This document shows, piece by piece, positions 47 through 50,308 of a stretch of DNA of 64,000 bases. The stretch lies in contig NC_061063.1 in assembly GCF_021917145.1 (NCBI RefSeq), forward strand, positions 7,259,944-7,323,943, in the 5' to 3' direction. The notes beneath the pieces were generated by a model that ran no database searches, was not told where the DNA came from, and was given only the letters and a program-made list of their open reading frames with translations. The number at the start of each line of letters is the position of its first letter. The first letter of the stretch is position 1. The position numbers were made by a program, and so were the translations under genes. Origin of the DNA: Hypomesus transpacificus. Its lineage: Eukaryota > Chordata > Actinopteri > Osmeriformes > Osmeridae.

Positions 47-3000
47 CTGCAGCAGCACAGACACAGCTCAGACACGGGGCTACCAGCAGGGCGGTGCCAC
101 TGAGCTATAACTGACACCAGGGCAAGCCAAACCCTCACAAACGTAAAAGCTAGATCTCTCTGGAATGTTTATCGACCACAACACCCAGCACCCGAAAGGC
201 TGTGTCCTACTATTTCCCACAGGCTATTTCCCAACCAAAGTAAACACAGTTCATGACAAAGACAAATTATACTAGAGGAATAGCCTACATCCTGTGAAGA
301 GAGAAGAGACTTACTACAGAAAAAGATATTTGATTGAGGTGAAGATATTTGTTTGAGGTGTCCTGTATATATATCTGAGTTAATCTGTGTGCATGTGTGT
401 GTATAATACCTTGATGTCTGGGGTGGACTCAGGCCTGGGGCTGTGTGTCTTGGTGGAGTCAGCCAATCGGCTCTCAGCCTTCCTCTCCGCAGAGCGAGAC
501 CGCCGTCCCGTCGGGGTGGAGGCCTGCCGGCGCTCCCCGCCGCGCGGCAGAGCCGAGGTCACGGGTGAGGGGGCCGCCTCCACTGGGGACACAGGGGTCA
601 TAATGGGGGCGCTGACGGGGCGGGTGTTCTTATCCGGGGTGGACGCCATGGCTACAGGGGGAACAGGAAGGGGAACAGGAGGGGGAATAGGAGGGGGAAT
701 AGGAGGGGGAACAGGATGGGGAACAGGATGGGGAACAGGAAGGGGAACAGGAGGGGGAATAGGAGGGGGAACAGGATGGGGAACAGGATGGGGAACAGGA
801 AGGGGAACAGGAGGGGGAACAGAAGGGGGAACAGGAAGGGGAACAGGAGGGGGAACAGGAGGAGGAACAGGAAGGGGAACAGGAGGGGGAACAGGAGGAG
901 GAACAGGGGGAGGAACAGGAGGGGGAACAGGAGGGGGAACAGGAGGGGGAACAGGAGGAGGAACAGGAGGGGGAACAGGAGGAGGAACAGGAAGGGGAAC
1001 AGGAGGAGGAACAGGAGGGGGAACAGGAGGGGGAACAGGAGGGGGAACAGGAGGAGGAACAGGAGGGGGAACAGAAGGAGGAACAGGAGGGGGAACAGGA
1101 GGAGGAACAGGAGGGGGAACAGGAGGAGGAACAGGTTGGGGAACAGGAGGAGGAACAGGAGGGGGAACAGGAGGGGGAACAGGAGGAGGAACAGGAGGAG
1201 GAACAGGAGGGGGAACAGGAGGAGGAACAGGAGGGGGAACAGGAGGAGGAACAGGAGGGGGAACAGGAGGAGGAACAGGAGGGGGAACAGGAGGAGGAAC
1301 AGGAGGGGGAACAGGAGGAGGAACAGGAGGGGGAACAGGAGGAGGAACAGGAGGGGGAACATGAGGAGGAACAGGAGGGGGAACAGGAGGGGGAACAGGA
1401 GGAGGAACAGGAGGAGGAACAGGAGGGGGAACAGGAGGGGGAACAGGAGGGGGAACAGGAGGGGGAACAGGAGGGGAGTAAACAGTCCAACCTCTGCTGG
1501 TAACAAAATCTGTGACAGTTTGACATTCATCCGTTGGTTACTCACACATACATTCACACTGCTACATTAATACATCCCACATGCAGGCCAGAGTGCTGCC
1601 CTCATGTAGTAGTCAGTACCTGTGGGAATCAGGGAGGGGCCGGGCTCTGGTGGAGGAGAGCGATCCAACAACTCAAACCAGTCATCCTTTACTAACACTG
1701 AGGAGAATTACAACCAATCAGAGAGAGAACACAACAGTCTGGTGTGTCTGGTGTCCCAAGCTCCACACAGACACCTGGCGTGCAGTGCAGCAGCACCATG
1801 TGAAGTAGCGAAGCCTCTGCTGGTCGTGACAAGCTCCTTTGCATGACGCACTTCCGAGAGAGCAAAGCTGAGTATAAAAACATAGGAAGAAGTTTTGAAT
1901 GGTGAAAGTTTGAGAAAGTTAGAGCCATTATTCTCTCTGCTGTAGCCCTACGTTATTTTAAGCCTCTGTCCTCCCACCCTATTGGAGTAAGGAGCACATA
2001 ACAGCAGAGGGAGGAATGGGACTGATTGTCTCCCACAGGATGTCATATGGATTTTTATTGAGCACTTGAAACAGGCCCAGGGCAGTGAATGATATTGGAA
2101 CGCACTCCTTAGAAACAAAAGCAAAGCCACATAATCCAGACATATAGCTTGACATCACAAAAATAGCCCGAGTCTGCTCGCAGTCTAAATGCCAGGGTCT
2201 GTGGAGGGCAGGCGATACTTCAATGCGGTTTTATTTCTTGTACCTGGAGGTAAGGTGAGAGGTCTGGGAGGGTCAAAGTCGAGCAGGATATACCAGAGGT
2301 CATCCTGCCTCTGAATGTAGGATTGGAGCTGCCAAATCTTCTCCCCCAGAGCCCTAGTCCTCTTCCTAGCCCCACCCAGCTCCAGCTCCACCTGCTGCTG
2401 CAGCCTGCCAGCCTCCTCCTCCAGCAAGGCCAGCCTCTTGGTCTCCAGGCCCCAGTCTTGCCCCGGGACCAGGCCTGTCTGCCGGGCAGTCTGCTCCCAC
2501 TTCTCCCTGAGGCTGTGGCTCACAGCCCTCCACTGCTTCTGCAGCTGAGCGACGCTCTGGTGACACAGCCACACGTCCTGCAGGGTCTGGAGCAGTGTGT
2601 CCTCCACCGGGTCCGCAGGCCACGGGCTGCTCCATACCTGCGCACCACCACCCCTCCCCCCCTCCTCTGCAGCCCGTCCCCTCCGCTGGGAGGCCCTGCG
2701 GATGGTACCCGGTACAGTGTCAGGAGGAGGAGGAGCGGCGCTGGGAGACGCTGGAGGTGGGGCTCTCCTCGTAGGGGCGACTGGCAGGGAAGAAAGAGGA
2801 GTCCTCAGGGGAGTCGGAGAGGAGCAGAGAACTCTCTGGAGGATGAGATCTGTAACTCAAACAAGCGTCTGCGGGTTCTCTGAATTTAGAGGCTTGTCTG
2901 TACAGAGAGAGTTCTCAGTGTGCCAAGACGCTTTCATTCATCGATATTATTAATCTCACAACAAGCACAGTAATTAGTCAGCTTGATACTCCAGCACATT

Positions 3001-4758
3001 GTCCTGGTATAGTGCTAGAGCCTGTTTTATTGTTGTAAGCTTAAATCTGAGGTGTGAAGTATGTGTGTGTGACACGGTGGCACACACACAGAGCAAGCTG
3101 AACAATCCAAAGTTAGGTTTGGCATTATCGTCTCATTCAAATGAGGAAGCGCAACAAAGCTTGGCCAAAACATTCAGTACCTTCAAGAGGGATCACACAG
3201 ACATGGTCCAATAACCAAAACCAATCATCTTCTGAGATCCACACCCATGTCTGTTTAGGTGGCGCTTCAAGAAACCTGATTCTCTTGGTGGGAGGCCTCA
3301 GTTGAATGATCTTCAGCACCATTCTGGGAGGGGTGCGAGCAGAGCCTGACACTGGGACATGCCAGACATGCCGCGTGGCTGATGAGACAAACAAATCATT
3401 CACTGACTGTTTAGCCAAGCTTAAGGACCGCAATGTATAGTGACCGCAAGTACGCTAGGGCTCGCGTCTGCAGACCTGCTAAGCTATGTCAGGAGCTACA
3501 GCAGCCCTCTGGATGTCGAGATTACGTGGAGAATGCAGTTGCTGAGCGGCACTCTAGAATATTTCTGGGAGGTTCCGCCCTCGTAGGAAGTTCTATCCAA
3601 GCACATGGGCTACTAGCTTCTATTGCAAATTTGTGGCAACTTTTATGTGGAAGATTAGAGCATTCATTGAAGGGAACGTGCATTCTCTCAAAGGGTATCT
3701 CCATCGCGCTCATTGCGATCAGTATAAATTGGCTGTTTGCAGGGGAGAGAAGGGCGTTGTAGGTCTGTGACAAAGATCAGTCTGTCAAAACAGGACAGAG
3801 AAGATCAAATATGTCGATCACAGTTAGATCACAGTTAGATCAAAGCTTAGGTTAGTGTTGACTGTGAGGGAGGAGCAGCGGTTCGAATTATGACGGTGTG
3901 CAAATTCCCAGTTTTTTCAAATTAGCAGGACATTTTGACAAATGTCAACATAATCTTGTAAGATTGAAAAACAGTGAAGCACTACTTGGAACATATTACA
4001 CTATTCAGACCAGTCAAAGCTTAGTCGAACCGAGAGTGAGTCTTTTTTAGTCTTGTTAGCTGGCAACTGGAATGCATGAGAATTAGAGTTTAGTACGTTT
4101 TGGTGAGGCTACCTATGGAGACCTGTAGGGGGCGCACCGGGGTGCGATCCAGTAGCACAAACCAATCATCCTCCTCTGTCAATTCTGGATGTGTCCAGCT
4201 CCTCGTCCCTGTTACCGTGGTGACGTGAGGTTTTTCTCCATACTGTGCTTTGTCGTTGATTGGACGGTGCTGCCGCTTGGCTTGAGACAAGACTAAACCA
4301 ACACAGTGAAGGAAAACTGTCAATCACAGGTTGCCTATGGTGCCAAAATATTCTCCTACTTAAATCACAAGACACAGTATGAAACGCAGGGGGATACATT
4401 ATAGAGACTCTGTCTTCAACTGACTAAAATCTAAAGATGAACCCATGTACAAGATCGAACAAACGTATTCCCTCTATGCAGTTCTGGCAGCACCCTGTAA
4501 GACTAGCACTGTGCTCCTGAACTATCAGTAGGTGGAGACACTGAGCAGTACATTGACAATTAAGTTTGTCTCATAATCCTTAATGTACTGACATGCTCTG
4601 TTCAGATAGATATAAGGAGGATAAAAACCTACAGCTTCACCTCACTGAAATAACAACACACATAACAGACATGGGAAGCATTTCTATGACTTTATGAAGT
4701 CTCCCATATGTGAATTGGGATCATATGGTTCATTTCCCTGGCAACCACACACACACGC

Positions 4759-4820
<62 letters not shown>

Positions 4821-7087
4821 CTCCGGGGAATCCTCAAGCCTTGGCTTGCTGAGCCACCACTACAGTATGTGTAAAGCGTTCAGTTCAGTTGAATGGTCTA
4901 ACAATGCCAGGGGCCCTTAAGACTGGAACTGTGAAATGAACCACAGCAGAGGGGAGCACTGGGTGTCTGCACAGCTGCTGCTTCGTTTACGTGTTTCCAT
5001 GCATCAGACTGACCCTGCAGCTATTGTTATTTATCTCACAGATGAGGAGTGTGTCTTGGAAAGGCAACAAGAGTCAATTGAGACAACTATCTTGGGTTAA
5101 GCTGGTTCTCCTTTAAGGAATAATAGTTGTTGCTGTGGCAGGGTGTTTTTGCTGTTGCAGACGAGGGTGGATCGATGACAGTGCTGGGCTCTCATGGGGA
5201 TCTGTCAGGTTGTAGAGGTCATGATGAGGTCAGCGGCCTCACACAGCAGGTGTGAAGGGCGAGTCTGTACAGCACAAAGGGGCTCTGACTGGCTACCTGA
5301 GGGAGCAGGGCGTGGGTTGGAGGAGAGGAAGATGAAGGAGGAGGAGGAGTCTGCCGTGATGTTGGAATCCTCCCTCCACTCTTCTGGCTCTTTTGTGAAT
5401 GAAGAGGCAGTTTGAGGCGGCAGGGGAGTGGTCACTGTCTCACACACAGCGAATGAACCAAAAAAAACACAATTCAGAAAAGAACACAATTCCGATTCAC
5501 ACAATAGCAACAACAAAACGCGAGTCCATCTGAAAAGCATTATGTAACGTTTTGGTGCAATGGAGTATTTGGGAATTGAACAACAAGCCCCCACCCCCAG
5601 CCCCACCCCCAGCTAGAAGGTGTAGTAAGTGCATGACTGTGGAGCAGCGGAGTCCCTGCTGTGCTCTTAGCCTGAGGATTATCACCAGTCAGCACACAGC
5701 AGGGGGGGCCGCGCAGTGAGCTCAGCACCGGCAGGCCAGCAGACGACAGCAAGCACAGCAGAGACACACAGAGCGCATGGTGCATGGCGAGGAGGCCGTG
5801 TCTCCTGGAAAAAGAAGCGTACGCAGCCAGATGGTGATCGACTCGTCGGGGCGCCGGCAGGTCAGCTTGGACCTGGCAGCGTCGACCACAAGCCCCCTAG
5901 GAGGCCTTGCTGTGCCAAGAGCTGAGCACGGGCACAAGCGGAGGACCGAGACTGGCCAGGGTTAAGTGTTGAGGAGAGGAGCTGAACAGCAGAAGGCAGG
6001 TGGGAGGTAATAGTCCCGGGGGAGAAGGGAAAGCTGTTTGGTGTGGTTCTGCTTAATCAGTGACTCACGACTTGTGTTGTTAGCAGAAAGTGAAACAGAT
6101 GCTATCAGGACAAGTTACATAAGCGAGTGTCCCAGATGACAAGGCTGAGAGAAGCTGAAAACAGAGCGGAGAGCCTCTCAGAGCTTAAGTGACTGCCAGA
6201 GGAGTGAACAACAACCCTGTGCTGCACAGTACCTGAGGGGTAGAGGGTGGGTGGAAGCCATCCAGCATCCATTAAACAGAACCAGTCGTCCTCTTCTGTC
6301 CTTGCTTGGGTGAACTGAAGTACAGGAAGATACTTACCTCCGGCTGAAGTACACAGGTGCAAGTCAGAGTAGTATCTGTGTTTTCTCTTGTGCACGCGCA
6401 CACACACACACACATGTACAAGGGCACGCATCTACACACGCATCTACACACACCTCCATCAAGACTCCTGGAGTTCCTCTTGCTGGACGAGCGCTGGAAC
6501 AGCGGGGCTGGCCTGTCGATCATAGAGCTGGCCTGGCGTGTCTGGGCCTGGGTCCGGCCACTGTAGCGGAACTTGGAGCCCAGCGCCAGGAACTTCCTGG
6601 GAGTGGTAGCCACCTCAGTGGACGTCAGCCTGTGTGGCAGAGAACCAGGACGTGTCGATTTAGCTCTTGTCTGTGAACAGGGAGGGTACCCAGCCAACTA
6701 AGGAGTGATCATTCCCAGTGGGGACCTCTTACCTGAAGAAGGTATGATGCTCCACACAAACTTTCCAAAGCTTCTTGGAGGCCTTGTAGTTTGGCAGTTT
6801 GAAGCCAATGGCGCTCTCATACTGTTCCATCTGTTATCAACAAAAAAACGGGGAACAAGCTCTATTTTAGCTTCCGCACTAAATCAGCTCATTCTAGAGG
6901 GGAACAAAAGGGTTTAGGATTCTGTTGTACCTCTGAGGGACGAATCTTGATGAAGAAGCTGCTGCGTTTGTATGAAACCTTGAGGACTTTGGGCCAGGGG
7001 AAACGATTGATCCTCAGCTTGTCCTTATAAACCATCAGACCACTGGAACACACTCCCAGCATTATGTCCACCCCATCCAAGTCCTGA

Positions 7088-7232: not shown

Positions 7233-10200
7233 GAGAGAGTAAGACATAGACAGAGAGATGGATGAATAGATAAATGAGAAGAGAGAGAAACAGCATTAAA
7301 GGAAATGTAAGGAGAGCAGAAGAGTCACGGAGTGAGTCACTGAGGGAGTCAATGTGATGGCTCTTCTCCTGCAGTTGACCTGCAATGACTTTGGTCATCC
7401 ACTGAGAGGCAGCATGCACCTCCATTTCAGAATAAGTACCTCCATATTTTATTTAAATCCCTAGTTTGATGCAAACAGCCTGACCTCCTTTTCTGCTATC
7501 AAATATGACACGCCATGTGTTTGTCCCTTTTTTGGGACACAAACACTGACTTGGCTTTCATGGCTGTAATGCAGATGGCCTACCTTGGTCTAGGGTTTCT
7601 ACACAACACAAACCCCATGTCACAGTCCTCAAGATCCTAGTCATCCTTTCTCCCTGATTGGAGAAGTCTGGTAAGGAGGTAGTGTCTGTTCTTTCCACTA
7701 TACCTTACATTTACATTTAGTCATTTAGCAGTCGCTCTTATCCAGAGCGACTTACAGTAAGTACAGTGACATTCTCCCCGAGGCAAGAAGGGTGAAGTGC
7801 CTTGCCCAAGGACACAACGTCATTTTGCACAGCCGGCAATCAAACCGGCAACCTTCTGATTAATAGCCCGATTCCCTAACCGCTCGGCCATCTGACCCCC
7901 ATCTGTACCTTAGCCTGGTGAAGGTCCACCCCGTACATGGAGAGTTTCTTGGCGTTCTCCAGGAACATCATGTCTGCCTGCGCTGGACTCATCGCCCTGT
8001 GGACAGGAATTAGGTGAGTGGATGCATGTGCTTCCCTGCGTACCAGATCATCCAGCACACACACACACACAGTAACACAAGAACACACACACACAGTAAC
8101 ACAAGAACACACACACACAGTAACACAAGAACACACACACACCCGTGCACATACCAACACACCCACCCAAACATGCGTACGTGTGTGCAGTGCGAGCGAG
8201 CGTGTCTCTCCCATCGTCCCCCGGCCCGCGCAGTGCTCACCTGTATGTGCGGTGCAGCTCCATCACCTTCTCCTCCAGCTCCTTGGTCTGGCCCTGAGCC
8301 AGGCGCAGGTCCTTGGCGTAGTCCGTCCCGTGCACCTCGGGGTCGTACTCGCCCAGCTCCGACTGCAGGGCGTAGGAGCCCAGCAGGGCCAGCGTGACGA
8401 AGGAGCAGGGCAGCCTGCTGGCCAGGATGTCCTTCCGCAGCTGCAGACACAGGAAGTACCTGCCCGCGCAACGCAACAGGGGGGTCAGGGAGAGGTCACG
8501 GCAGGCTTCCGGGAAGCACTTCAGTTACACCTCAGTTGATGATGTTAATTAGGGCTTAAGCCTCCTAGTTGTTTACTAAAAGTGCTGTTTCACGGATGTG
8601 GAGGCGGGATGAAATGGATTCATTATGATGATGAACTGAGCTAGCAGGTAAGGACTGGATGGTGAAGCGTCATGTGATAGATCTGTTTCTGTAATGGTGT
8701 TTCTTTCTTTATGTTTCTCTTTGTATAGACAGAGGAGGGAGAGGGAGGGAGGGGTGAGTCGGTGGAGTTTACCTGGTGATGTCTTCAGAGAGCTGGGCGG
8801 GGTCAGGAGGGTAGAACTTCACATTGAAGGTAAAGTCATAGGTAGTGCCTGGAGAGAGAGACAAAGGACACTTGATTAAACATACTGTATTTATAAGGAC
8901 ATAAGTGAGCAGAACTGTTCCAACTAAGCTGAGGTGGAAAAACTCACCATGCACCTGTCTGCGGATCTCCTTGGTGAAGTCCATCCAGGTCTGTGGAGGT
9001 AAACACATGCATTATGACACATACACACACATCAGATCTGTCAGATGGTGTTTGACGTGGGTTGATCTCAGTTTCTGAGTGCACGTGAGATGGTGTGTTG
9101 GCTGTTAGATACTGACCTTCATGGAGGGTGTCTCCCAGATGGCCAGGCCATAGTAGTCCCTCTCCATCAGATTAAGATGGTCACACACCTTGGAGAAGAG
9201 ATCCTGGCCCTTGGCATGTTTCTGTATGAGAAGAACAAGATTTCACCCATCCAGTATGTGAGATACTGCACACCAAGATACTGTTTGCCAGAATTGATCC
9301 AAGGTTGTTAAGTACGAAAATCATCAAGTTGGGTCCTAATGTGTGAAAAATGAATTTGTGAACGACAAATTAGTGCCCCAAAGGGAGGGTTCGAATCTCC
9401 AGTATTTCTCCCCAAGGATGCTGACAGTCTGTTAGGCAGCTGTTAAACATAAACACAGACATTGACTGAATACAGACTGATAATGAGTTTGCTAATAGCA
9501 TACTAAATGTGTCTTGAATGACTTCTAAATGGATTGACTTCATTAACAGAGTTTCTTACGTCCAGCTCACACTCATACAGAGTGTCATCCAGCAATGTGA
9601 CTTTGCACTGCATGATCGTGGGTCGACGGGGGGCTTTGGGAGGTTTGACTTCGTCCTCTGCAGCCTTGTCTTTTCCCTCTCCTTCTCCCTCTCCTTCGCC
9701 CTCTCCTTCGGCCTCTCCCTCCGGCTTGGACTCCTCGTCCTCCTCCTTCTCCTGCTCACTGTCCTCTCCTTTCTCCTTGTCTTTCTCCTTTTCCCCCTCG
9801 TCCTCAGACTCTTTCTCGGTGTCAGGGTCTTCCTTCTGGTCTACCTGGACAGGCTGACGGAACACAGACAGCAATGCCTTCATTGTAATAGCCTCACTGT
9901 ATGCATCCCGACATGGTATCAACATGACCGAAGCAATGTTTGGACTGTTAAAGGACTACCAGACTACCGTTTCACATCCTGTAGCTTTAGTTTAAGCTGA
10001 ATCACAAACTGTATATACATCATGCAGTAACCAAGCTAAGACCAATCAATTTCTAAATACCTTAACCAAACATTTTAAAAGTCATACTCTGAAACCACAT
10101 TGATCTCATGATATTATTCCAAAAAGTTGTAATCAGGTCAACTGCTCAGCTCCTCTAAACCACAGGCAGTTCAACAATGGCTCTTCTGCTAAATAATTAA

Positions 10201-11829
10201 AAGCTCACGAGGCAACAAAAAAAGAGCAAGAAAGAGAAACATTGCAATTGAAGATGGAGACAAGTCTTAAAATAACGAGCGATAAGCAAGAAAGATGAAG
10301 CTGCAGGGCCGGTAGACAGAGAGACAGACAGACAGACAGACAGGAAGATAGACAGGCAGAAAGGAAGACAGAGACAGACAGACAGACAGGCAGGAAGAGA
10401 CAAAGACCCACAGAGGCACACAGATGGTTTAAACATCCCTTTCAAGTATATCAGTGGGGAGAAGACTGCTCTTAGGTTACTACACTGTCTCCCTGGAGAA
10501 TAAGCTAGACAGGAGATGGCTGGCTGGGCTTGGGAAAACTAAGTAAGTTCCCTCTGTGAAGGCCTGACCTCAGGAGGATGGCAAGGCTCAACGCTAACGA
10601 CTAGTGAAGAGAGCTTCTGCATTGGCTTTGTTTCACATCGGCCAATCAGAACATGATACCACAGTCCTTTGGTGCCTATTAGTCTGTGCCTACACAGTCA
10701 ATTAAGCCTTCAAGATTAAGAACTCAATGTGTTCAATAGAAACAATATTTTGGTTTAAAGTGTAACTGAAGATATACCATAACTGTTATTCTTGTAAACA
10801 GAAGTAAAGAATGATAAACCTTAAGGCTACCAAAAGTAACAACCTAGATCACTCAAAGATTATTCATGAGAGGCTCAAAGCAAAGACTGAGATCAATACT
10901 TTAGTCTTATCAGATCTATAGGCTCAGCTGTAGCCCAGTTAATAGTTGACTCAACTACAAACAGGTTCTAACCAATCCAGATGCCACAGAATGAATCAAT
11001 ACTGTATTGGCACCTATGGCAAAATAACTGACTAGATTAGCTAGCAAGTCAACAATGTTAATGAGCAAGCTATATCTGTCTCCCATTAAAAAAATGAGAT
11101 TTTCCCAAAAAATGCAGAACACAATTTGTCATCAAATGTCTGACATTCAAATTATAACCAACCAGGTAGACAAGAAAACCCTTTCCACCATCGTAAGCAT
11201 CCACAGTGATGCAGTTGTTCTGCTGAATCTGGACCCAGGTCTGTTTGCTAGCATTTACATTACATTTAGTCATTTAGCAGACACTCTTATCCAGAGCAAC
11301 CTACAGTAAATACAGGGACATTCTCCCCGAGGCAAGTAAGGTGAAGTGGCTTGCCCAAGGACACAACGTCATTTGGCACGGCCTGGAATCAAACCGGCAA
11401 CCTTCTGATTCCTAGCCCGATTCCCTAACCGCTCTGCCATCCGACTCCCTCTCTGTACCTGAGCCTCCACACTGCTGACTGAGTGCTGGTCCAGCGCGGC
11501 GTCGCCCTCCAGCCTCAGCTCTGGCTCCGGGTCGGCGATGGGAGCCTTGGGCTCGTCCTCCCCCTTGTGGTCCTTCTCTCCGGCCTCCCCCTCGCACTGC
11601 GAGCGCCTCTTCAGGAAGGAGGAGAAGAGACGCGAGAGGCCCCGGCCGGCCGAGGTGCGGGTGCGTGGCTTCAGCTGCTCCTCCTCGGGGGAGGGCGAGC
11701 CGGGGCTCTGGGGGGCGGTGGGCGAGGCGTCCTGGGGCTCCGAGGGCCCAGGGTCCTGCGCTTCCGGCTCTCCCTGCTGCCTCGGCTTCTTCTGCTGGCT
11801 CTCTGCCTCGTCTGTCGTCATGGCAACGG
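1..11829 (-). CDS. epb41: Protein 4.1R (erythrocyte membrane protein band 4.1), 3' end outside window
   Basis: Membrane-skeleton adaptor that links spectrin-actin to membrane proteins. Coding exons read on the minus strand, high to low: 11821-11459, 9853-9560, 9221-9117, 8990-8948, 8848-8773, 8459-8241, 7996-7909, 7083-6931, 6830-6733, 6629-6454, then cassette exons 6314-6233, 5434-5297, 4184-4113, 3231-3181, 2780-2244 and 1697-1620, then 651-410 and 46-1 (partial). The reading frame stays open through all joins. Two features identify 4.1R rather than 4.1G, 4.1N or 4.1B: the headpiece signatures [13 protein letters not shown] and [13 protein letters not shown], and the FERM text [10 protein letters not shown] and [16 protein letters not shown]. 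The spectrin-actin-binding and C-terminal domains must lie beyond base 1. Teleosts commonly keep two copies (a and b); I cannot say which this is. Confidence 0.93.
410..651 (-). CDS. epb41: epb41 post-FERM exon (RPVSAP region)
   Basis: The exon starts two bases before an ATG codon at acceptor CCCTGTAG and ends in phase 0 at donor GTATTA. It encodes [20 protein letters not shown] and then [14 protein letters not shown]. This matches in position and character the mammalian 4.1R segment after RSLDGA (RSPRPTSAPAITQ). It is basic and Ser-rich, with RRxS-type sites. Its acceptor lies directly against the minisatellite. Confidence 0.8.
655..1478 (+). repeat. 12-bp minisatellite GGAGGGGGAACA inside an epb41 intron
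   Basis: About 68 near-perfect copies of a 12-bp purine-rich unit with G/A variants (GGAGGAGGAACA, GGAAGGGGAACA). Because 12 is a multiple of three, all frames stay open and give false proteins (Cys-Ser-Pro, Phe-Pro-Leu, Gly-Asn-Arg repeats). On the transcribed strand it is pure pyrimidine apart from one G per unit, and it runs directly into the splice acceptor at 652. Confidence 0.97.
1620..1697 (-). CDS. epb41: epb41 cassette exon N, DDWFELLD motif
   Basis: Twenty-six codons, phase 1-1, acceptor AATTCTCCTCAG, donor GTACTGAC. Encodes [20 protein letters not shown]. Both splice sites are good, and the phase fits the flanking exons. The intron that follows (652-1619) is almost entirely a 12-bp minisatellite. 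Confidence 0.72.
2244..2780 (-). CDS. epb41: epb41 large cassette exon with coiled coil and DLWYILLD motif
   Basis: One hundred seventy-nine codons, phase 1-1, strong acceptor CTTTCTTCCCTGCCAG, donor GTACAAG. The first third is Ala/Pro/Arg-rich. The middle, from [14 protein letters not shown] through [18 protein letters not shown] to [12 protein letters not shown], has the Leu/Gln/Glu spacing of an amphipathic helix or coiled coil. The end is [20 protein letters not shown], a variant of the motif in the smaller cassettes. Reading past the donor hits a stop after 19 residues, which supports the splice call. Not recognised from mammalian 4.1R. Confidence 0.7.
3181..3231 (-). CDS. epb41: epb41 cassette exon M, DDWFWLLD motif
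   Basis: Seventeen codons, phase 1-1, acceptor GGATCTCAG, donor GTACTGAA. Encodes [17 protein letters not shown]. An acceptor 19 bases upstream (CCTAAACAG) looks good by eye but would start in phase 0 and so does not follow the FERM-adjacent exon in frame. This is the shortest cassette, essentially the motif alone. Confidence 0.62.
4113..4184 (-). CDS. epb41: epb41 cassette exon L, DDWFVLLD motif
   Basis: Encodes [20 protein letters not shown], phase 1-1, 72 nt with acceptor CATCCAG and donor GTAGCC (4112-4111). Acceptors at TAACAG (exon start 4208, 96 nt) and GACAG (start 4175, 63 nt) are also in phase. A donor ten bases upstream (GTCTCC) would break the phase, which favours the one chosen. 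It closely resembles exon N ([16 protein letters not shown]) and exon K. Confidence 0.65.
4743..4820 (+). repeat. (CA)n microsatellite
   Basis: Uninterrupted AC dinucleotide run of roughly 75 bases between two epb41 cassette exons. It starts with a few ACGC variants. Confidence 0.95.
5297..5434 (-). CDS. epb41: epb41 candidate cassette exon, Ser-rich
   Basis: Forty-six codons, phase 1-1, acceptor GTGAGACAG, donor GTAGCC. The translation starts [19 protein letters not shown] and ends [17 protein letters not shown]. The tail [11 protein letters not shown] can be aligned loosely with [12 protein letters not shown] of the neighbouring cassette, but the Trp and Asp are missing. Support is an open frame, matching phase at both ends, usable splice sites and position among sister exons. 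It is the least certain of the six. Confidence 0.45.
6233..6314 (-). CDS. epb41: epb41 cassette exon K, DDWF-LMD motif
   Basis: The exon encodes [20 protein letters not shown] and ends in phase 1 at donor GTACTG (6232-6231). The frame from the preceding FERM-adjacent exon needs a two-base start. Acceptor GACAG (exon start 6295, 63 nt) or CAAG (start 6304, 72 nt) gives that. The visually stronger TACTTCAG acceptor (start 6314, 82 nt) does not fit the frame, so the exact 5' edge is open. It is the first of six symmetric exons inserted between RSLDG and the conserved RPVSAP exon. I do not recognise it from mammalian 4.1R. Confidence 0.65.
6454..9221 (-). CDS. epb41: epb41 FERM domain and FERM-adjacent exons
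   Basis: Eight exons: 9221-9117 ([19 protein letters not shown]1), 8990-8948 ([14 protein letters not shown]), 8848-8773 ([19 protein letters not shown]), 8459-8241 ([20 protein letters not shown]2), 7996-7909 ([19 protein letters not shown]), 7083-6931 ([18 protein letters not shown]3/PH-like), 6830-6733 ([13 protein letters not shown]) and 6629-6454 ([23 protein letters not shown]-adjacent). Sizes 105, 43, 76, 219, 88, 153, 98 and 176 nt keep one reading frame. In 4.1R this domain binds glycophorin C, band 3, p55 and calmodulin. No key residue looks lost. The last exon ends RSLDG in phase 1, the phase used by every following cassette exon. Confidence 0.95.
7088..7240 (+). repeat. (GA)n microsatellite next to a splice acceptor
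   Basis: About 150 bases of GA with sparse CAGA and AAAG interruptions. On the epb41 strand it is (CT)n ending CTCTCTTCAG, the acceptor of the F3-lobe exon at 7083. Confidence 0.95.
7705..7900 (-). mobile_element. tRNA-derived SINE, copy 1
   Basis: Minus orientation. The head reads GTCAGATGGCCGAGCGGTTA, a box-A-like tRNA Ser/Leu start, followed by the box-B-like segment GGTTGCCGGTTTGATTGCC. The body contains GACGTTGTGTCCTTGGGCAA, and the tail CTGTAAGTCGCTCTGGATAA is the common fish SINE end. It shares most bases with the copies at 11252 and 38150. It sits in an epb41 intron, in the gene's orientation, about 6 bases from the 5' splice site. Confidence 0.9.
8057..8145 (+). repeat. 24-bp tandem repeat with (CA)n
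   Basis: Three copies of CACACACACAGTAACACAAG plus AACA, in the intron between the FERM exons at 7996 and 8241. Confidence 0.85.
9560..9853 (-). CDS. epb41: epb41 acidic headpiece exon entering the FERM domain
   Basis: Ninety-eight codons, phase 0 to 0, acceptor TTCCGTCAG, donor GTAAGA. Most of the exon encodes a Lys/Glu-rich low-complexity stretch with a GE dipeptide run. It ends with [21 protein letters not shown], the first strand of the FERM F1 lobe. The Met in that segment matches the internal start of the short 4.1R isoforms. An alternative acceptor nine bases downstream (CCTGTCCAG) would shorten the exon by three residues without changing frame. Confidence 0.9.
9854..11251 (-). other. 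epb41: epb41 intron between the headpiece exons
   Basis: Apart from the GACA repeat at about 10.3 kb and the SINE beyond its far end, I see ordinary AT-rich intron with no convincing exon. Confidence 0.6.
10314..10401 (+). repeat. (GACA)n / (GGCA)n simple repeat
   Basis: Degenerate GACA tetranucleotide array with GGAAGA and GGCAGA variants, in the intron upstream of the acidic headpiece exon. Confidence 0.85.
11252..11450 (-). mobile_element. tRNA-derived SINE, copy 2
   Basis: Same element and orientation as the copy at 7705. The head is GTCGGATGGCAGAGCGGTTA and the tail ends in repeated ATTTACAT-like bases. It begins about 6-8 bases after the donor of the first epb41 coding exon. Confidence 0.9.
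11459..11829 (-). CDS. epb41: epb41 first coding exon (headpiece)
   Basis: The acceptor CTCCAG follows a run of C (plus-strand G run at 11834-11847). ATG lies at 11821-11819, and 363 coding bases end in phase 0 at donor GTACAG. The product begins [12 protein letters not shown], like the MTTE start of long vertebrate 4.1R forms. It is Pro/Glu-rich and contains the conserved block [16 protein letters not shown] and then [11 protein letters not shown], both recognisable from mammalian 4.1R headpieces. This is the start used by the long isoform; shorter 4.1R forms start downstream, at the FERM domain. A SINE begins about 8 bases past the donor. Confidence 0.9.
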
Positions 11830-14800: not shown

Positions 14801-17368
14801 GCTCTCTGGCCTCTCTTTCTAGGGGTCGAAGGAGTAGCCATGACACCTTAGACTTAATTAACCCGCAGCCACACAACATGGCCACTCTCAGCCAGTTTGA
14901 TATCACAGGGTCTTAGGGTATCACAGGGTCTAAGGGTCTTAGGGTATCACAGGGTCTTAGGGTATCACAGGACCCTAGGGTATCACAGGGTCCTAGGGTA
15001 TCACAGGGTCCTAGGGTATCACAGGACCCTAGGGTATCACAGGGTCCTAGGGTATCACAGGGCCCTAGGGTATCACAGGGTCTAAGGGTATCACAGGACC
15101 CTAGGGTATCACAGGGTCTTAGGGTATCACAGGACCCTAGTGTATCACAGGGTCTTAGGGTATCACAGGACCCTAGTGTATCACAGGGTCCTAGGGTATC
15201 ACAGGGCCCTAGGGTATCACAGGGTCCTAGGGTATCACAGGACCCTAGGGTATCACAGGGTCCTAGGGTATCACAGGACCCTAGTGTATCACAGGGCCCT
15301 AGGGTATCACAGGGTCCTAGGGTATCACAGGACCCTAGTGTATCACAGGGTCCTAGGGTATCACAGGGCCCTAGGGTATCACAGGGTGTTAGGGTATCAC
15401 AGGGTCTTAGGGTATCACAGGGCCCTAGGGTATCACAGGGTCCTAGGGTATAGGGTTGTGCCATATAGGCCAGTATGTTAAAGTCTGAGAAGTCAAGAAG
15501 TAGTTTCAAGAGAAAATACTGCCTGTTCATTGCACGATAAAAGAGTTGAGCACTGGTGATGATAAATCGCATGTATTATATTTTGAAGTTGCTCTTGAAT
15601 GCATGATAACTCTTTAAGGTGCTCGAGCTGATTAGAGAACTACACAGGGCCAAGAACTGGGTCAATAATGGACAAGTGTGTTGCATGTGTGAGGACTATT
15701 AAGAAGAGCTCTAAAACTATTGTATGCTGTCTTTGTGTCTGTGGGTTTGTTTGTGTGCGCACACAAACTATACACTCTGCATGCTGTACCTGTACCATAA
15801 TGGGTGTGCACATTTGTATTTCATCATGACAGTTTGGAACCAACTAGATCTATTTTAAGGCTGCCACTGTATTATTCCAAAAAGTCAGCTGGTGTATGAG
15901 ATATGATGACGATAAAAAACAGAAATTGCAGGTTCAGCCCCCAGGAAGTACACTGGAAGAAGAGATGATGCCAGCTCCCTCGTGCTGTGTGGGGCTGACA
16001 GAGAGAAAGGGGGTTGCTGACGAAACAGAAATGACTGGATACGTGGGCTCCATGTGTACGAAGTCTTGATCTAACCAGGGCTTCCGTATGACCGGGATTA
16101 ATTGTGCCCAGCTGCTCACAGGGCATATGGAGTGAAACACAGTCCCTCCACCACACGCATGGATTTCTACTTGCACGCGCGCGTGAACACACACAGCCCT
16201 TAACTGCTCCAAATCACCTTTCACTGCTGAATCAAAAAGCTTTTACCTCTCTCCCTTTCGATCGATCTTCATAAATAAAGCCCGTGACCACACCTTCTAT
16301 TATGCGTGCTAAAGAAAATAAAAATCACCACTAAAATCCATTCTAAAAAAAAACTTCAATAGAAAACCGCTTAAGCAATATCTAAAATTCTAAATGCTCG
16401 GTAGATTGTAGCTGGGTGCAGAAAGTGAGCTTAAGGATTGAAAGCGGCTTTAGAATTAATCGGGCCCTGCGTGGGATTATAGCAGGGTCTGTATGCTGAT
16501 GTGGAGGGCAGAGGCAGCTGGATGTGTGTGTGTCAATCATCCTAGCCCGGCCATCCTGTCCTGCTCCTCCCACACATCCCACCGCACATCCAGCAACCCC
16601 TCACTAACAGTCAGGACCAGAGGAAGTGACCCAAAAAACGATGGCCTGCCTGTCTGCCTGACCTAAATGACTTCAGAGGCAGGAAATGTCTGATGAGTGA
16701 CACTAGAGAAGTGTCAGGGCAGGATTTGGTAAGGGCCCATGAGACCATAGAAATGTGTTGATCAAATATGAGCCATATTTGGTTTCCTTGCACTGGGAGA
16801 CTGGACAGGCCTGGAGGCCATGGCTCAGGGAGTTAGTGACAGCGATCGAAGTAATCAATGATCATTTGAAGTCCACCAAACAAAGCCTTCAGAGAGACAC
16901 ACTTCAACTTCAATACGCTCCTGTGATGTACTGAACTACGGGTCCATGCAAATGAGAGAAAATTATGGTGTCAAATGGCAAACATTTTATTAATTATGAA
17001 AATAGCTAATACGCTTCAATCTTTATGAACATGTAATCCTGCCACAATGATGCTCTTGTCAGCGTCCTCATCCTAAACCCGTTGTCAGACAAGAATTTTG
17101 TCTCTGATGGTCAGGAAGCAAATGTGCCTCCTCTTCCTCACTCATTGTTAAGGCAAACCATATATACATTTTCTCTTAAAATAAGATTGTATTTTCAAAA
17201 TCCAAATGGACCATTCGACACTTTCTATTATAAGCGGGTGGCAGGTGTTTAAAGGTTGTCTGAAAATGGCGCCGAATGTGAAAAAAATGTCAACAGATTT
17301 CTTTCCTCGCGAGCATCGCATCACAATACATAAGCCATCGCTGATGTAGAAGGTTGCACATTTCTTAC
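11830..17368 (-). other. epb41: epb41 first intron (inferred)
   Basis: It contains a C/G run at 11834-11847, short CA runs, a poly-purine/pyrimidine stretch near 14240-14330 and the 18-bp minisatellite at 14.9-15.45 kb. Several open frames occur, but none has family similarity or good splice sites on both sides. Intron status depends on the inferred non-coding exon at 17.4 kb. Confidence 0.5.
14903..15452 (+). repeat. 18-bp minisatellite GGTATCACAGGGTCCTAG
   Basis: About 30 tandem copies of an 18-bp unit. The central bases alternate between GGGTCCTAGG, GGACCCTAGG, GGGCCCTAGG and GGGTCTTAGG, so many units contain the palindromes CCTAGG or GGGCCC. A length divisible by three keeps frames open and produces a false Thr-Leu-Gly-Pro-Cys-Asp protein on the minus strand. 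Confidence 0.97.
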
Positions 17369-27168: not shown

Positions 27169-28101
27169 TCACATGTCATTGTCATAGTCCCCTATCATTC
27201 GGCGTGTGTGTGAAGCCAGAAAAATATCATTGTCGCGTGGGCAGTCGTGATGACAGGAGCAGGTCTTGATGAACATCATCTTCCGTCGGAAGGAGTCCCC
27301 CTCTGGGCAGCGAAACTCCACCTCCGCAGTGACGGTGGTGTGGGGAGTGCAACATCGTCCGTCCGTACATGCCCCACAGAACTTGGGCTTGTACACTCTG
27401 GTGCTGCTACAACCGGACAGCTCGAAGCGCATGCCAAGGTGGGTCTTAGGTGTCCGAACACACTTCTTCCCTTTCTGTGGACACACAAAAAAAGTAATCA
27501 GATTACCAAGAGGATAACTGCTATGGACAGTATTTCAAAACGCCGCGAATGGCATGTTAATGCCGAAACATAATGGTCCTGTCGTGAAATATAGATCTGT
27601 TGTTGATGGTTGGTATCTTCTTACCTTGATGTCCTTTTCCTGCTCCACATGGCAGGGTCGGATCATGCAGATACGGCTCTGCTTTTCTAGCTGACACTGC
27701 TCGTTGTCATTGGTTACTCTGGATGACACGCCCATGCCACAAGTGGCTGAGCATTCACTCCACTCAGTGGTTTGAACAATGCAGTTTTCCCTGGGGCTCT
27801 CCGGCACCGGCCCATGGGCTGACACCTCCCTGTAGACTGATAGAGGGGAAGAGGAGACCAAGGGGTGAATCTCAGGTCCTGATAGTGGAGGAGAGACAGG
27901 GGTTCAGTGGTGAAAAATAGGAGTGATGGAGGGAGGGATGGAGAGATAAGGGAGGGAGTTAGAGATTTGGTGGAGAGAAGGCATAGAGAAGACTATAAAA
28001 TTAGGAATATTTGTCAGGAAGGAAATGATTAGATTTAGTTTTGAGAGAGATAGATAGAGATAGTAAAAGACAGGGAAAGACAGAGAGAGGGAGATAAAGA
28101 G

Positions 28102-28147
<46 letters not shown>

Positions 28148-29634
28148 GGCTCACCAGCCATGGCTGATTGGAAGTGGTGGTTCTGGGGGGTCTGGTCACA
28201 CACCCATTCCTCGCAGCACTTGCCAGGGATCTGGATGCGACGAGGGTACGGGCAGTCAGGAGAGGGCAGGCGCACGTCACTGGCACAGGTTGGCACACAG
28301 CCAATCTCGCCGTTCATGCAGACGCAGTGGTGCTTGCAGCTGGGCTGGAAGGTTTCTCCACTGCGATAGATCACCCCTCCCAGGTCACATGTCTGGCCTT
28401 CCTGGGCTTAGTTCCAAAGTGTTTTGTCAAATTCAGTCTTAATCCTTCAATGTTCAGCATGTGTACAATGTGTGGAGATATGTTCATTTCTCATTTCAAG
28501 AGAAATTGTGGAGAATTAGAATTGGGAAATTACAACATGTCATGTTCCCACAAACTAAACAGCTTGTTAACTAACTCACCCATGCAGATTCCAGTATCTG
28601 TATCACTCAGCACAGAGTAGTCACAGTAGAGCTCCTTGTGGTGGTCGCAGGGCTCCAGGAGGGAGCAGGGTTCGTCCGCCTGCCTGGCACACACCTTACA
28701 ACAGCCACAACCATCCAGAACCAGGCTGGTGCCAAACGGGCATGGAGGGGGGTCCAAGGGGCAGTCACAGGGCTGGAAGCAGTCCTGTGCCATTGTCTGT
28801 AGACATGAAACAAACGAGGGAATTATTGCATGTAGATTCCATGTTCCAAGTTGGATTTTTCGCCACTAGTAATAGCTCTTTACTGCCACAAGACGGAGAC
28901 ACTGCACTGGATTTCAGGGAATGAACCCACGTGGATTTACGAGATAATTATTCATATGGTGAGGTAAGAAATACTGTACACTTCTCAGCATCAAGATATT
29001 GGATATGAAAACACTGAATGATTAAATATCTTTCAGACCTTTGTTAGTCCTGATTAAATTCATATATTCCTTTTCATACATGTATCTTCACATGTATTTA
29101 AATACATTTTAATTAAATCTTAACATGAAGATGGGTAACGTGGGAGTCACATTAGTTTAACTGGTATCATAACCAATGTAAACTAATTATGACATGCGAG
29201 GACTCCTTACTCAAAGCAGATATTTAGGGATACCCTGCTTCTACTACTGTTCTATCACGAGGTGCTGTGGCTGTACTCTACCCTGCTTCTACTACTGTTC
29301 TATCACGAGGTGCTGTGGCTGTACTCACAAGACCACACCTCCTTTGGAATGTTTTTAAGATCAGAATAGTGCACACTGCGTTCCCTATTCCTAACATGGG
29401 CTACAACAGCCAAAAGAGTCCATCTGCAAAATAAGGATTTCCGTGACAACAAGACATTAGAACAAAATAAAATCTTATTTTTGTGCAAACCAAGTTAAAA
29501 TAATTAAATTACATTGATATTACATCATTGTTATTGTAATACAAATTGTTGATACTAAAAAACGGATCTAAAAGACTTACCGTGGAAACTATTAGCAGAA
29601 GAAGACCAATTCTAGCAGTTATTTCCCCAGACAT
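27169..29634 (-). CDS. ccn2: CCN family matricellular protein, CCN2/CTGF type
   Basis: Secreted regulator that binds growth factors, integrins and matrix. Five exons, one per domain: 29634-29581 (signal peptide, MSGEITARIGLLLLIVST), 28796-28580 (IGFBP, with GCGCCKVCA), 28406-28155 (VWC), 27836-27625 (TSP1, WSECSATCG) and 27474-27169 (C-terminal cystine knot, stop at 27171). The joined product is 346 residues; human CCN2 has 349. I count 12, 10, 6 and 10 cysteines in the four domains, the full family set of 38. RFELSGCSSTRVYKPKFCG and CPRDNDIF point to CCN2 rather than CCN1, 3, 4, 5 or 6. The VWC acceptor (AACTAAG) is weak and was chosen by phase. Context suggests an ohnolog, perhaps what is called ctgfb/ccn2b in fish. 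Confidence 0.93.
28104..28141 (+). repeat. (GA)n microsatellite in ccn2 intron 3
   Basis: Pure GA run of about 36 bases starting some 14 bases beyond the donor of the VWC exon, followed by looser purine-rich DNA to about 27.9 kb. Confidence 0.93.
29231..29326 (+). repeat. Exact 48-bp tandem duplication in ccn2 intron 1
   Basis: Two adjacent copies of a 48-base segment beginning TACCCTGCTTCTACTACTGT. The second starts at 29279. I see no differences between them, so the duplication is recent or recently homogenised. Confidence 0.93.
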
Positions 29635-47912: not shown

Positions 47913-50308
47913 TCATTTGGCAGCTTGCCATATAATGATTCCCAGTATGACCAGCACTACAGACATTACCATGGCCAAGATGCACATCTTCTTGCGGGAC
48001 TTTTGCTTTGGGGAAAAACAAAAAGTTAAGAAGGTGTTTGGTTAGTGACAGTGATCATACAAAATGTGAGAGGATCCAATATGGATGGTTTTGACAGTGT
48101 GCTATGACTCCATGGCATCTCGACTGGGCTGCTGGGATGGAGGGTCAGGTATACCTGATGCTTACCTGGTATACCTGACCATACCACCTGGTATACCTGC
48201 TGCTTACCTGGTAGTAGGCTGCTCTCTGGAGCTGCTCCGCGCCTCGCTCAACGTGAACCTCAGCATTTTCAACATTTGCCTCTATGCTATCTGCAGACAG
48301 AAACGCACATTCAACATCACCATCCATGTTTCGGTGTTGCAAAACCAGACCAAACCTAAATAAATTGGTCATTAAATAAGGTGTTATTGTGATTTAAACA
48401 GGTTAAAATTACCAATCATCTCTCCCTGGTCATGGATCATTACGGCCAAGTCTTTAAAGATCTGGTTGACATCCAAGATGTCCGACTGAAATCAGAACAA
48501 GACAACTATCTTTTAGCCATGTCCAACGGGTCAACGGTTTGGTTCCAGTCCTCTGAATCATATGGATTTTCTCCTCAGGACGGGGAGATTAAGACCACTA
48601 AGGAGGTAGATTTACTGAAGCTTCGGATCGATATAGAGTTTGTACACACAGTGGAGGGTAAAGTCCAGCAAGGCTAAAGGGAAGTCTCACCTCCAGCTGT
48701 CTGATGTTTGTTTCTCTGTCTTTGATGAGCTCCAGATCTTCTTCTGTTATGGCTGCCTCCTCTACCTGGGATGTGGTCTGGCCCCAGTCCTCTTGGCTAA
48801 ACACAGACAGAGAAGGATACGAGTCAGAACCAATACAATCCAGCTAAAAGGTCCAATCTGAACGATTGACTGCATGGGAATTACGGAGAATGTAAAAGAA
48901 TTGTGCATGCACATACTTATCAAAGGACACCAGCTGTTCATCATTGGTGCTTTCGTCAGCCTTGAAGGAGAGTGGCAACAAAAGTTACATTTGTATTCTA
49001 ATGCACTGTCTGCACGTTGCAATCATAATATCATGGCAGGTTCTTATCCAAATGCTACATTCTTATGAAATACATTTTACAAAGCTGCTGCTTATATTCA
49101 ATCATTTTACAAAACAATGCAAATGATAGTGTGTGGGGCTTACAGAGAGGCGAGATCCTGCCCTGGCTCTGGCCACAGACTCCTTCTCCTTCTCCGCTGC
49201 CCGACGCTGCACAGCCTGGAAGTTGTTGAGGGCCGCTGAGAAGTCATTCATGAGCCGGTCCTTCTGAATCTTCTGCTGTCTCTGAGGATGAGGATCAGTG
49301 TTGATTCCCAGCCCCCTAACTAACTGTAGTCAGGGAAAATGCATACTTTCAAGTATATATATATTTATTTTTTTATTGTTTTTTTCCATTGTGCATTGTC
49401 TGGGGTTTCAAACTGTCAAATACACACAATGTTGTTAAATATATGTCACATTTCTTGAGATACTTTCTATTAAGGTCACTAGCCACACATGCATGCTATA
49501 TGCATGATACTTACTTGCTCTGATGGCGATGAAGGTAGGGGGACAGAGCCCAGATCTTTCAGGTGTTTGTTGGTCTCCTTGGCCAGTTGGTTTGTAAAAT
49601 GCTGTATCTGCTGCCTGGGGGGAACATATGGAGACTTAGAACTATAACATACAGTAAACATAAATTTATGTGACAGCTCTTCTACACAATTAGCACAACA
49701 GTCAGACCCTTTATATGTAGCAAAGCTTCACATTACTTCACATTGGGCCAAAATTGGGCTGCAAGGACAAAACCTTATTATTTTAAGTTCAGTGCCTAAA
49801 CAACCCATGGATATATTAGGATTTGAAAATGTGTAGATCCATATCGTATACATTTCATACTATATAGTAACACACTGACAGTATTAACTGACGTTTGTAA
49901 TTCAATTTTAGCTATTGAATACACATTTAAAATTATTTTATAAACATTGACAGTCCCATTCAGAAGTACTGTAGGGTTGTTCAGAGTTTAGAATGTGCAC
50001 TCGGTGAGGGAGCAAGACGAGAATTCTTACAGGCGATCCTGCAGTTCACTTGTGTCCTGCCGCGTCCCCAGCTGATTCACCATGCTCTTTATCTGAGCAG
50101 CTGTAAATGTGAAAATTGTTCGTTAACACAAGTTTAAATGTGTTATGGCGATTTGAAACGTTAAAGAGGGGATTCCAGTGGAAACAGCTAATCTTTAGCA
50201 TTACTCACTGTTCTGCGTGATCTTTTGGATGTTGGAGCTGCATGTTTGTATGAGGGAATTGAAGTCCCGTGGTAGGGAGCGATAGCTGTCCGCTTTAGCA
50301 TACGACAT
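47913..50308 (-). CDS. stx12: Syntaxin-12 (Qa-SNARE of endosomes)
   Basis: Endosomal recycling SNARE, tail-anchored. Nine exons: 50308-50209 ([16 protein letters not shown]), 50100-50031, 49614-49515, 49281-49144 ([16 protein letters not shown]), 48960-48917, 48796-48691 ([15 protein letters not shown]), 48485-48413, 48290-48208 (SNARE C-terminal half) and 48005-47913 (KSRKKMCI and membrane anchor). The total of 807 bases gives 268 residues; human STX12 has 276. The SNARE core [20 protein letters not shown] is intact. [20 protein letters not shown] and [10 protein letters not shown] distinguish STX12 from STX7. The last acceptor (CCCCAAAG) lies two codons before SRKK. A duplicated donor after the SNARE exon is described under findings. 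Confidence 0.96.

Follow-up and report, generated by a model that had tools for sequence, protein, structure and literature searches.

In a stretch of 64,000 nucleotides of the Hypomesus transpacificus genome (contig NC_061063.1, positions 7,259,944 to 7,323,943; hereafter the window), an epb41 (4.1R) gene carries, between its FERM-adjacent (FA) exon and a downstream exon that we call RPVSAP, a row of exon-like units, five of which encode one short motif, D-x-W-[FY]-x-L-[LM]-D. The units have possible splice phases, their motifs are homologous, the core of the motif is conserved, and within this genome the units are restricted to two loci, the second being a paralog of the window gene. The reading that we consider probable is that a tandem array of phase 1-1 cassette exons is present in both 4.1R paralogs, likely encoding a splice-variable, multivalent docking linker.

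The array in the window gene

The array is bounded upstream by the FA exon, ending ...RSLDG (6454..6631, minus strand, as are all the exons of this gene; Pfam FA at 5.6e-20, a genome match and a donor score of 8.6), whose last base is 6454, in phase 1, and whose peptide match extends to 6631, and downstream by the RPVSAP exon (410..651), with a phase-1 acceptor scoring 9.9 and a donor read by eye. Between them are modelled, all in phase 1-1, the cassette exons E1 (6233..6343; 37 residues, EDDWFCLMD), E3 (4113..4292; 60 residues, EDDWFVLLD), E4 (3181..3378; 66 residues, EDDWFWLLD), the long E5 (2244..2780; 179 residues, with DDLWYILLD at the end and an alternative acceptor at 2849) and E6 (1620..1697; 26 residues, KDDWFELLD). 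The five motif peptides named in an earlier prediction for this DNA (the original prediction) are all present, their initial D codons lying at 6290, 4170, 3229, 2301, and 1686, and on the minus strand only, there being 0 matches on the plus strand of the array region and 0 in 2000 dinucleotide-preserving shuffles of it. These shuffles, along with the genome-wide enrichment of the motif in two loci described below, rule out chance open reading frames. The tails following the motif, predicted to be proline-rich, are so only loosely, E4 having one Pro after the motif. The sixth candidate exon of the original prediction, E2 (5297..5434; 46 residues), is doubtful: it can be read in phase 1-1, but it contains EEW only and lacks the motif, its acceptor scores 0.9, and its similarity to any other exon reaches at best z 3.2, a value that 2 of 300 shuffles also reach. 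The body of E5 is a stretch rich in Leu, Glu, and Gln, helix-like by eye, and a Pfam search of the array exons, E5 included, returned no family above the cut-off. At 6337-6343, inside E1, there are two similar acceptor-like sites (tgtgtacttcag and cctgtacttcag) with a strong donor-like GGAG|GTAAGT in between, and a 6-nt microexon is possible at this position.

On the minus strand, the gene extends to the left edge of the window from a headpiece exon placed by eye at about 11,800, and Pfam recognises in it the FA, FERM_C, and FERM_M domains, which is the FERM plus FERM-adjacent combination of 4.1R. Its later exons lie outside the window on the same contig (C4), where ...GETIYIRHSNLMLE, ...HTETKTITYE, and ...TVKGGISETRIEKRIVITGD were matched. 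Judged by human sequence, these are exons of the spectrin-actin-binding (SAB) and CTD parts, downstream of the array. A Pfam match to Trnau1ap, a gene exon on the minus strand at 51780-52076, also falls within the window, and presumably this neighbor fits the neighborhood of human EPB41. From these similarities we infer that the window locus and its paralog are both 4.1R.

The paralogous array

A second array is located on another contig (C2), in the same place as the window array, between an FA exon ending SRTIDG (upstream) and an RPVSAP exon (downstream). It has 15 motif exons recognised by a regular expression (X1 to X15) and a 16th copy, X8b, with P at position +3, which was seen by eye and stands outside the modelled set. 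The paralog shares 83-93% identity with the window gene in the F2 and F3 pieces, and so does not look like a relic. In the F3a piece it matches the window gene at 94%, compared to 72-77% for the four other loci where this piece was found (in two cases across just 25-26 residues), and on this comparison it appears to be the closest paralog of the window gene. A block containing parts of X3-X4 is repeated with parts of X6-X7, the two being 93% identical over 1290 aligned bases, and thus the C2 array has also grown more recently. The proposal of serial exon duplication in the original prediction is borne out by this sister locus, where the corresponding intron holds 16 motif copies (15 of which were modelled in phase 1-1) and the 93% block; the proposal that other fish epb41 loci should carry the motif, asked within this genome only, finds its answer in the same paralog.

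X3 and X6 (C2:2914101-2924100, L015) are both very long, at 1257 and 993 nt in the exon models, with a Glu-rich repeat and the same motif at the end; X3 is thus an open exon of 1.2 kb. They are products of the block duplication, and their exon sequence diverges more than the intervening intron. The 3' part of the paralog, encoding the CTD (L015-L017), looks diverged: VQTHTVTISDSS...VVPIVQTQSKTITYE was found, and a SETRI-type match is absent from the 30 kb searched.

Splice phases and junction codons

For all six window candidates, acceptor and donor can both be read in phase 1, as originally predicted, and the exon lengths are multiples of three; all splice scores given here come from an approximate matrix. 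Some of the predicted boundaries have to be moved. E1 had been bounded at 6314, and we prefer 6343 (phase 1, score 5.8) because 6314, while scoring 6.3, gives phase 0. The start of E5 had been placed at 2849; it is most likely at 2780, whose acceptor, at 12.6, is the best among the window exons. The top-scoring donor is in phase 1 in 5 of the 6 window exons, E3 being the exception (phase 0, 5.4 versus 2.9), and in E6 the top donor, also in phase 1, is different from the one modelled. In C2 the top donor is in phase 1 in 14 of 15 exons and tied in the remaining one. The donor lies exactly 58 nt from the first D codon in 9/15 C2 exons and, by coordinate subtraction, in 3/5 window motif exons.

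A glycine codon split at the donor, another element of the original prediction, does not survive: GGT is read in unspliced DNA only, and in the spliced models the junction codon, made of G and the two bases that open the following exon, encodes Ala or Val for each of the 21 exons modelled (the 15 of C2 and E1-E6, the E5 junction being taken from its acceptor), as it also does at both RPVSAP exons. For X5, X6, and E2 the modelled acceptor was picked over a better-scoring phase-1 site, and if the best-scoring phase-1 sites are used instead, the tally becomes 14/15 for C2 and 5/6 for the window. Counts of RBFOX, PTB, and Nova sites are near expectation.

Distribution across the genome

Searches of the window's own assembly (437 Mb), with a pattern search that skips simple repeats and very common words, place the motif in the same two loci. 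The strict DNA pattern has 16 matches, of which 8 are in C2, 4 in the window array, 1 on contig C1, and 3 on contig C23, with 0 for the control. The relaxed pattern has 40, of which 13 are in the C2 array, 3 in the window array, and 24 elsewhere, the last figure comparing with 19 for the reversed control. The motif patterns thus cluster in two 4.1 loci only, the one exception being a short tandem repeat on C23. A mobile repeat is ruled out as the source, as the remaining genome matches are scattered and those on C1 and C23 sit in open stretches of 12-18 residues. The C23 repeat itself (C23:2792624-2792725, L043) reads WFWFLDD in a short open stretch, and its match to the motif is probably due to chance. 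A search of viral contigs gave nothing informative.

The FA peptide identifies seven 4.1-family loci, the window's included. The five loci other than the two array genes are presumably, by their likeness to human sequences, 4.1G (C6), 4.1B (C10 and C8), and 4.1N (C9 and C18). With the relaxed expression, 0 sense matches were found at all five, from the FA to the CTD-type exons, the span searched on C9 and C18 being without the very last CTD exon, which was not located; the motif is therefore not a property of every 4.1 gene. Three sense matches lie beyond the CTD on C10, and one of them, EDGWFCML at 7177543, is motif-like and lies some 14 kb beyond the final CTD exon. On C9 there is EFWVVVF, in sense orientation, about 100 bases after a CTD-type exon. 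The array is not known from mammals.

Evolution of the copies

What has been conserved among the copies is the core. Over 17 copies (a set that leaves out X6, X7, and X8, with X8b outside it), silent divergence (pS) in the core is 0.88 and amino acid-changing divergence (pN) is 0.16, compared to 0.79 and 0.65, respectively, in the stretch just upstream of it (ungapped, for copies reaching that far). The window's five copies alone give pS of 1.14-1.16 and pN of 0.19-0.20. As the silent sites are near-random while the peptide is held, most of the copies must be old. The suggestion of a linear docking motif in the original prediction is upheld to the extent that a core of about eight residues is kept amid divergent sequence.

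The first exons of the two arrays, E1 and X1, resemble each other with z 7.9. Taken with where they lie, this likeness suggests that one exon or more already existed before the two genes split; E1 does score higher with E3 (9.0), X3 (8.4), and X8 (8.0) than with X1. Homology of the E5 body to X3 and X6 was not supported (z 2.2 and 0.7). In the recent duplicates, X3/X6 and X4/X7, all seven exon indels are multiples of three, while the intron between has one 1-base indel.

A model for the array and its implications

Each exon would supply a divergent linker and one [DE]-x-W-[FY]-x-L peptide near its 3' end. With phases 1-1 throughout, any subset of exons could be spliced in after the FERM-adjacent region and ahead of the RPVSAP/SAB part with the frame kept, and many isoforms, as originally predicted, would be possible by phase. 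We infer that the exons are spliced in, that their inclusion varies, and that the peptide binds a partner. Splicing would then set the number of docking peptides, from 0 to 5 in the window gene and from 0 to 16 in the paralog, and also the length of the tether that links the spectrin-actin-binding part to the membrane-binding FERM domain, a length that could reach 414 or 1637 residues, respectively, the former figure counting E2 and the latter leaving out X8b. More tentatively, and with real reservations, the linker of fish 4.1R could be seen as a splice-programmed valency device, with up to 16 exchangeable exons, a new class of WFxLL peptide, and an array that block duplication is still enlarging in one of the paralogs.

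As a junction protein of the red-cell skeleton, 4.1R is a textbook case, and accounts of its regulation are usually based on mammals. If the model is true, cell types could dial the strength with which the membrane skeleton holds on to one partner, and the 21 exon-borne copies in a pair of paralogs would make an unusually clear example from nature of motif valency under the control of splicing. With copies that range from 93% identity to near-saturation of their silent sites, the arrays would amount to a built-in mutational series of the peptide. The WFxLL peptide, LIR-like and outside the known patterns for LC3-interacting regions (LIRs), would also open a concrete search for a partner of fish 4.1R, possibly one lacking in mammals.

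What the peptide might bind

By hand count, W at position 0, F or Y at +1, and an acidic residue at -2 are present in 21/21 cores, and L at +3 in 20/21 (X8b has P), and the tryptophan, the second aromatic, the leucine, and the preceding acidic residues together look like a groove-binding peptide. Our leading guess at a partner, albeit an unlikely one, is the ATG8 family, several LIRs in tandem tying 4.1R isoforms to LC3/GABARAP membranes. The LIR core is Theta0-X1-X2-Gamma3 with acidic residues ahead of the aromatic one (PMC7615515), and an aromatic residue at 0 with L, I, or V at +3 is indeed found in 20 of the 21 copies. However, all 21 fail both the cLIR and the xLIR expressions, which exclude F or Y at +1 (PMC5119064), so the peptide would not be filed as a LIR; and a motif profile searched against the PDB gave 0 matches, which speaks against a LIR and against our own reading alike. 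The main alternative to a LIR-type reading, distinctly unlikely in our estimate, is that the peptide is an intramolecular ligand of the adjoining FERM domain, acting in autoinhibition or in competition with membrane proteins, with copy number tuning the effect. The motif exons directly follow the FERM-FA region, the F2 and F3 pieces are highly similar between the two array genes, as given above, and acidic-aromatic peptides bind FERM lobes in ERM proteins and band 3, but the five sister 4.1 genes, whose FERM domains are similar, yielded no motif exon from the FA to the CTD-type exons.

It is improbable that the exons chiefly add length, as an entropic tether similar to titin PEVK, with the motif incidental. 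Full inclusion would add 1637 residues in C2 (15 exons) and 414 in the window (6 exons), and P, E, V, and K make up 24-54% of the C2 exons; yet it is the motif that has been conserved, far more than the linkers. By a charge-hydropathy rule, 8/15 C2 exons fall on the disordered side. An acidic dileucine signal for clathrin adaptors, [DE]xxxL[LI], would fit 16/21 cores by hand count, and we regard it as very improbable, given that E1, E5, X8b, X9, and X10 break the pattern, that the W and F/Y present in 21/21 are not needed by it, and that 4.1R is not a cargo membrane protein. Scarcely credible, finally, is the notion of non-functional open stretches in introns, duplicated by chance: the weak constraint on the linkers in similar copies would agree with it, but the core is conserved against near-saturated silent sites, the indels are in frame, the phase-1 donors in C2 are consistent, X3 remains open over its whole length, and the units are present in two paralogs.

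A number of observations do weigh against a functional cassette array in both genes. The highest-scoring acceptor of any phase is in phase 1 in only 3/6 window exons and in 11/15 C2 exons. The F1 pieces of the C2 gene match the window gene at 59-89% (one query peptide being inexact). The exon bodies of C2 without the motif show little similarity, only 8/66 pairs beating all 100 shuffles. In the recent duplicates, exon DNA has diverged by 5.2% (X3/X6) and 2.3% (X4/X7), compared to 1.5% (4 of 266) for the intron between and 3.7% over 109 bases of the intron after, the upstream flank having resisted alignment. For X3/X6 the pN/pS ratio is about 0.7, and for X4/X7, with five differences only, about 1.3; the long X3/X6 indels are partly within an in-frame repeat, which weakens the argument from multiples of three. 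The divergence figures suggest that the linkers are loosely constrained or fast-changing, the core being the constrained part.

Comparison with known systems

Tandem exon duplication is marked by adjacent homologous exons of equal phase, and this is what we find, E2 excepted. Duplicated exons have been linked to mutually exclusive choice (PMC9013439, PMC9741552), whereas in the 4.1R arrays any subset is permitted by phase and only a core of about eight residues is well conserved. Mammalian 4.1R has 21 exons, with a spliced headpiece and exon 16 in the SAB, and it shares with the fish genes, besides being the same gene, extensive isoforms and the FA, SAB, and CTD parts; no repeated-motif exons beside FERM are mentioned in the excerpt used (PMC10887211). 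The resemblance to LIRs, consisting of an acidic run, W at 0, and L at +3 in 20/21 copies, stops at F/Y at +1 (PMC5119064, PMC7615515).

No match to the five peptide strings was found in the literature searched, and no description of such exons in fish 4.1R was found among the literature matches listed. Similar peptides may occur in predicted fish 4.1 proteins, and database records may therefore already contain these exons. Titin PEVK is similar in having many symmetric exons, linkers rich in P, E, V, and K, a repeated short unit, and an expected variable inclusion; the core here, however, is acidic-aromatic (DDWFVLLD) and belongs to a membrane-skeleton adaptor, the likeness being one of description. 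The variable exons of CD44 likewise form an in-phase cassette run between constant exons, but they are not known to repeat one peptide motif.

Other features of the window

Directly before the RPVSAP acceptor lies a minisatellite of 34 copies of a 24-bp unit (656..1476, minus strand), pyrimidine-rich and AG-free on the sense strand. With its edges it forms an AG-free stretch of 838 nt, the longest in the window on either strand (the next being 255). The AG-free length before the RPVSAP acceptor in the paralog is only 95 nt, and before the modelled array exons 2-46 nt, so the two arrays do not have a long AG-free stretch in common. An association between long AG-exclusion zones and distant branch points has been described (PMC1431707), and the stretch is a possible control element. 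The minisatellite is also open in the frame of the RPVSAP exon, as a VPPP-type repeat, and it could affect splicing or, given an upstream acceptor, be read as polyproline.

Two similar short interspersed repeats, at 7714-7910 and 11250-11450, are presumably SINE-like (resembling short interspersed nuclear elements), and at 14916-15450 there is a tandem array whose unit is agggtcctagggtatcac in varied form. On the minus strand, exons of a CCN-family gene (Pfam IGFBP, VWC, and TSP1_CCN) are found at 27538-28865, for which a synteny search was uninformative (ten matches over nine contigs), and an exon of a syntaxin-like gene (Pfam Syntaxin_2) is found at 49105-49329.

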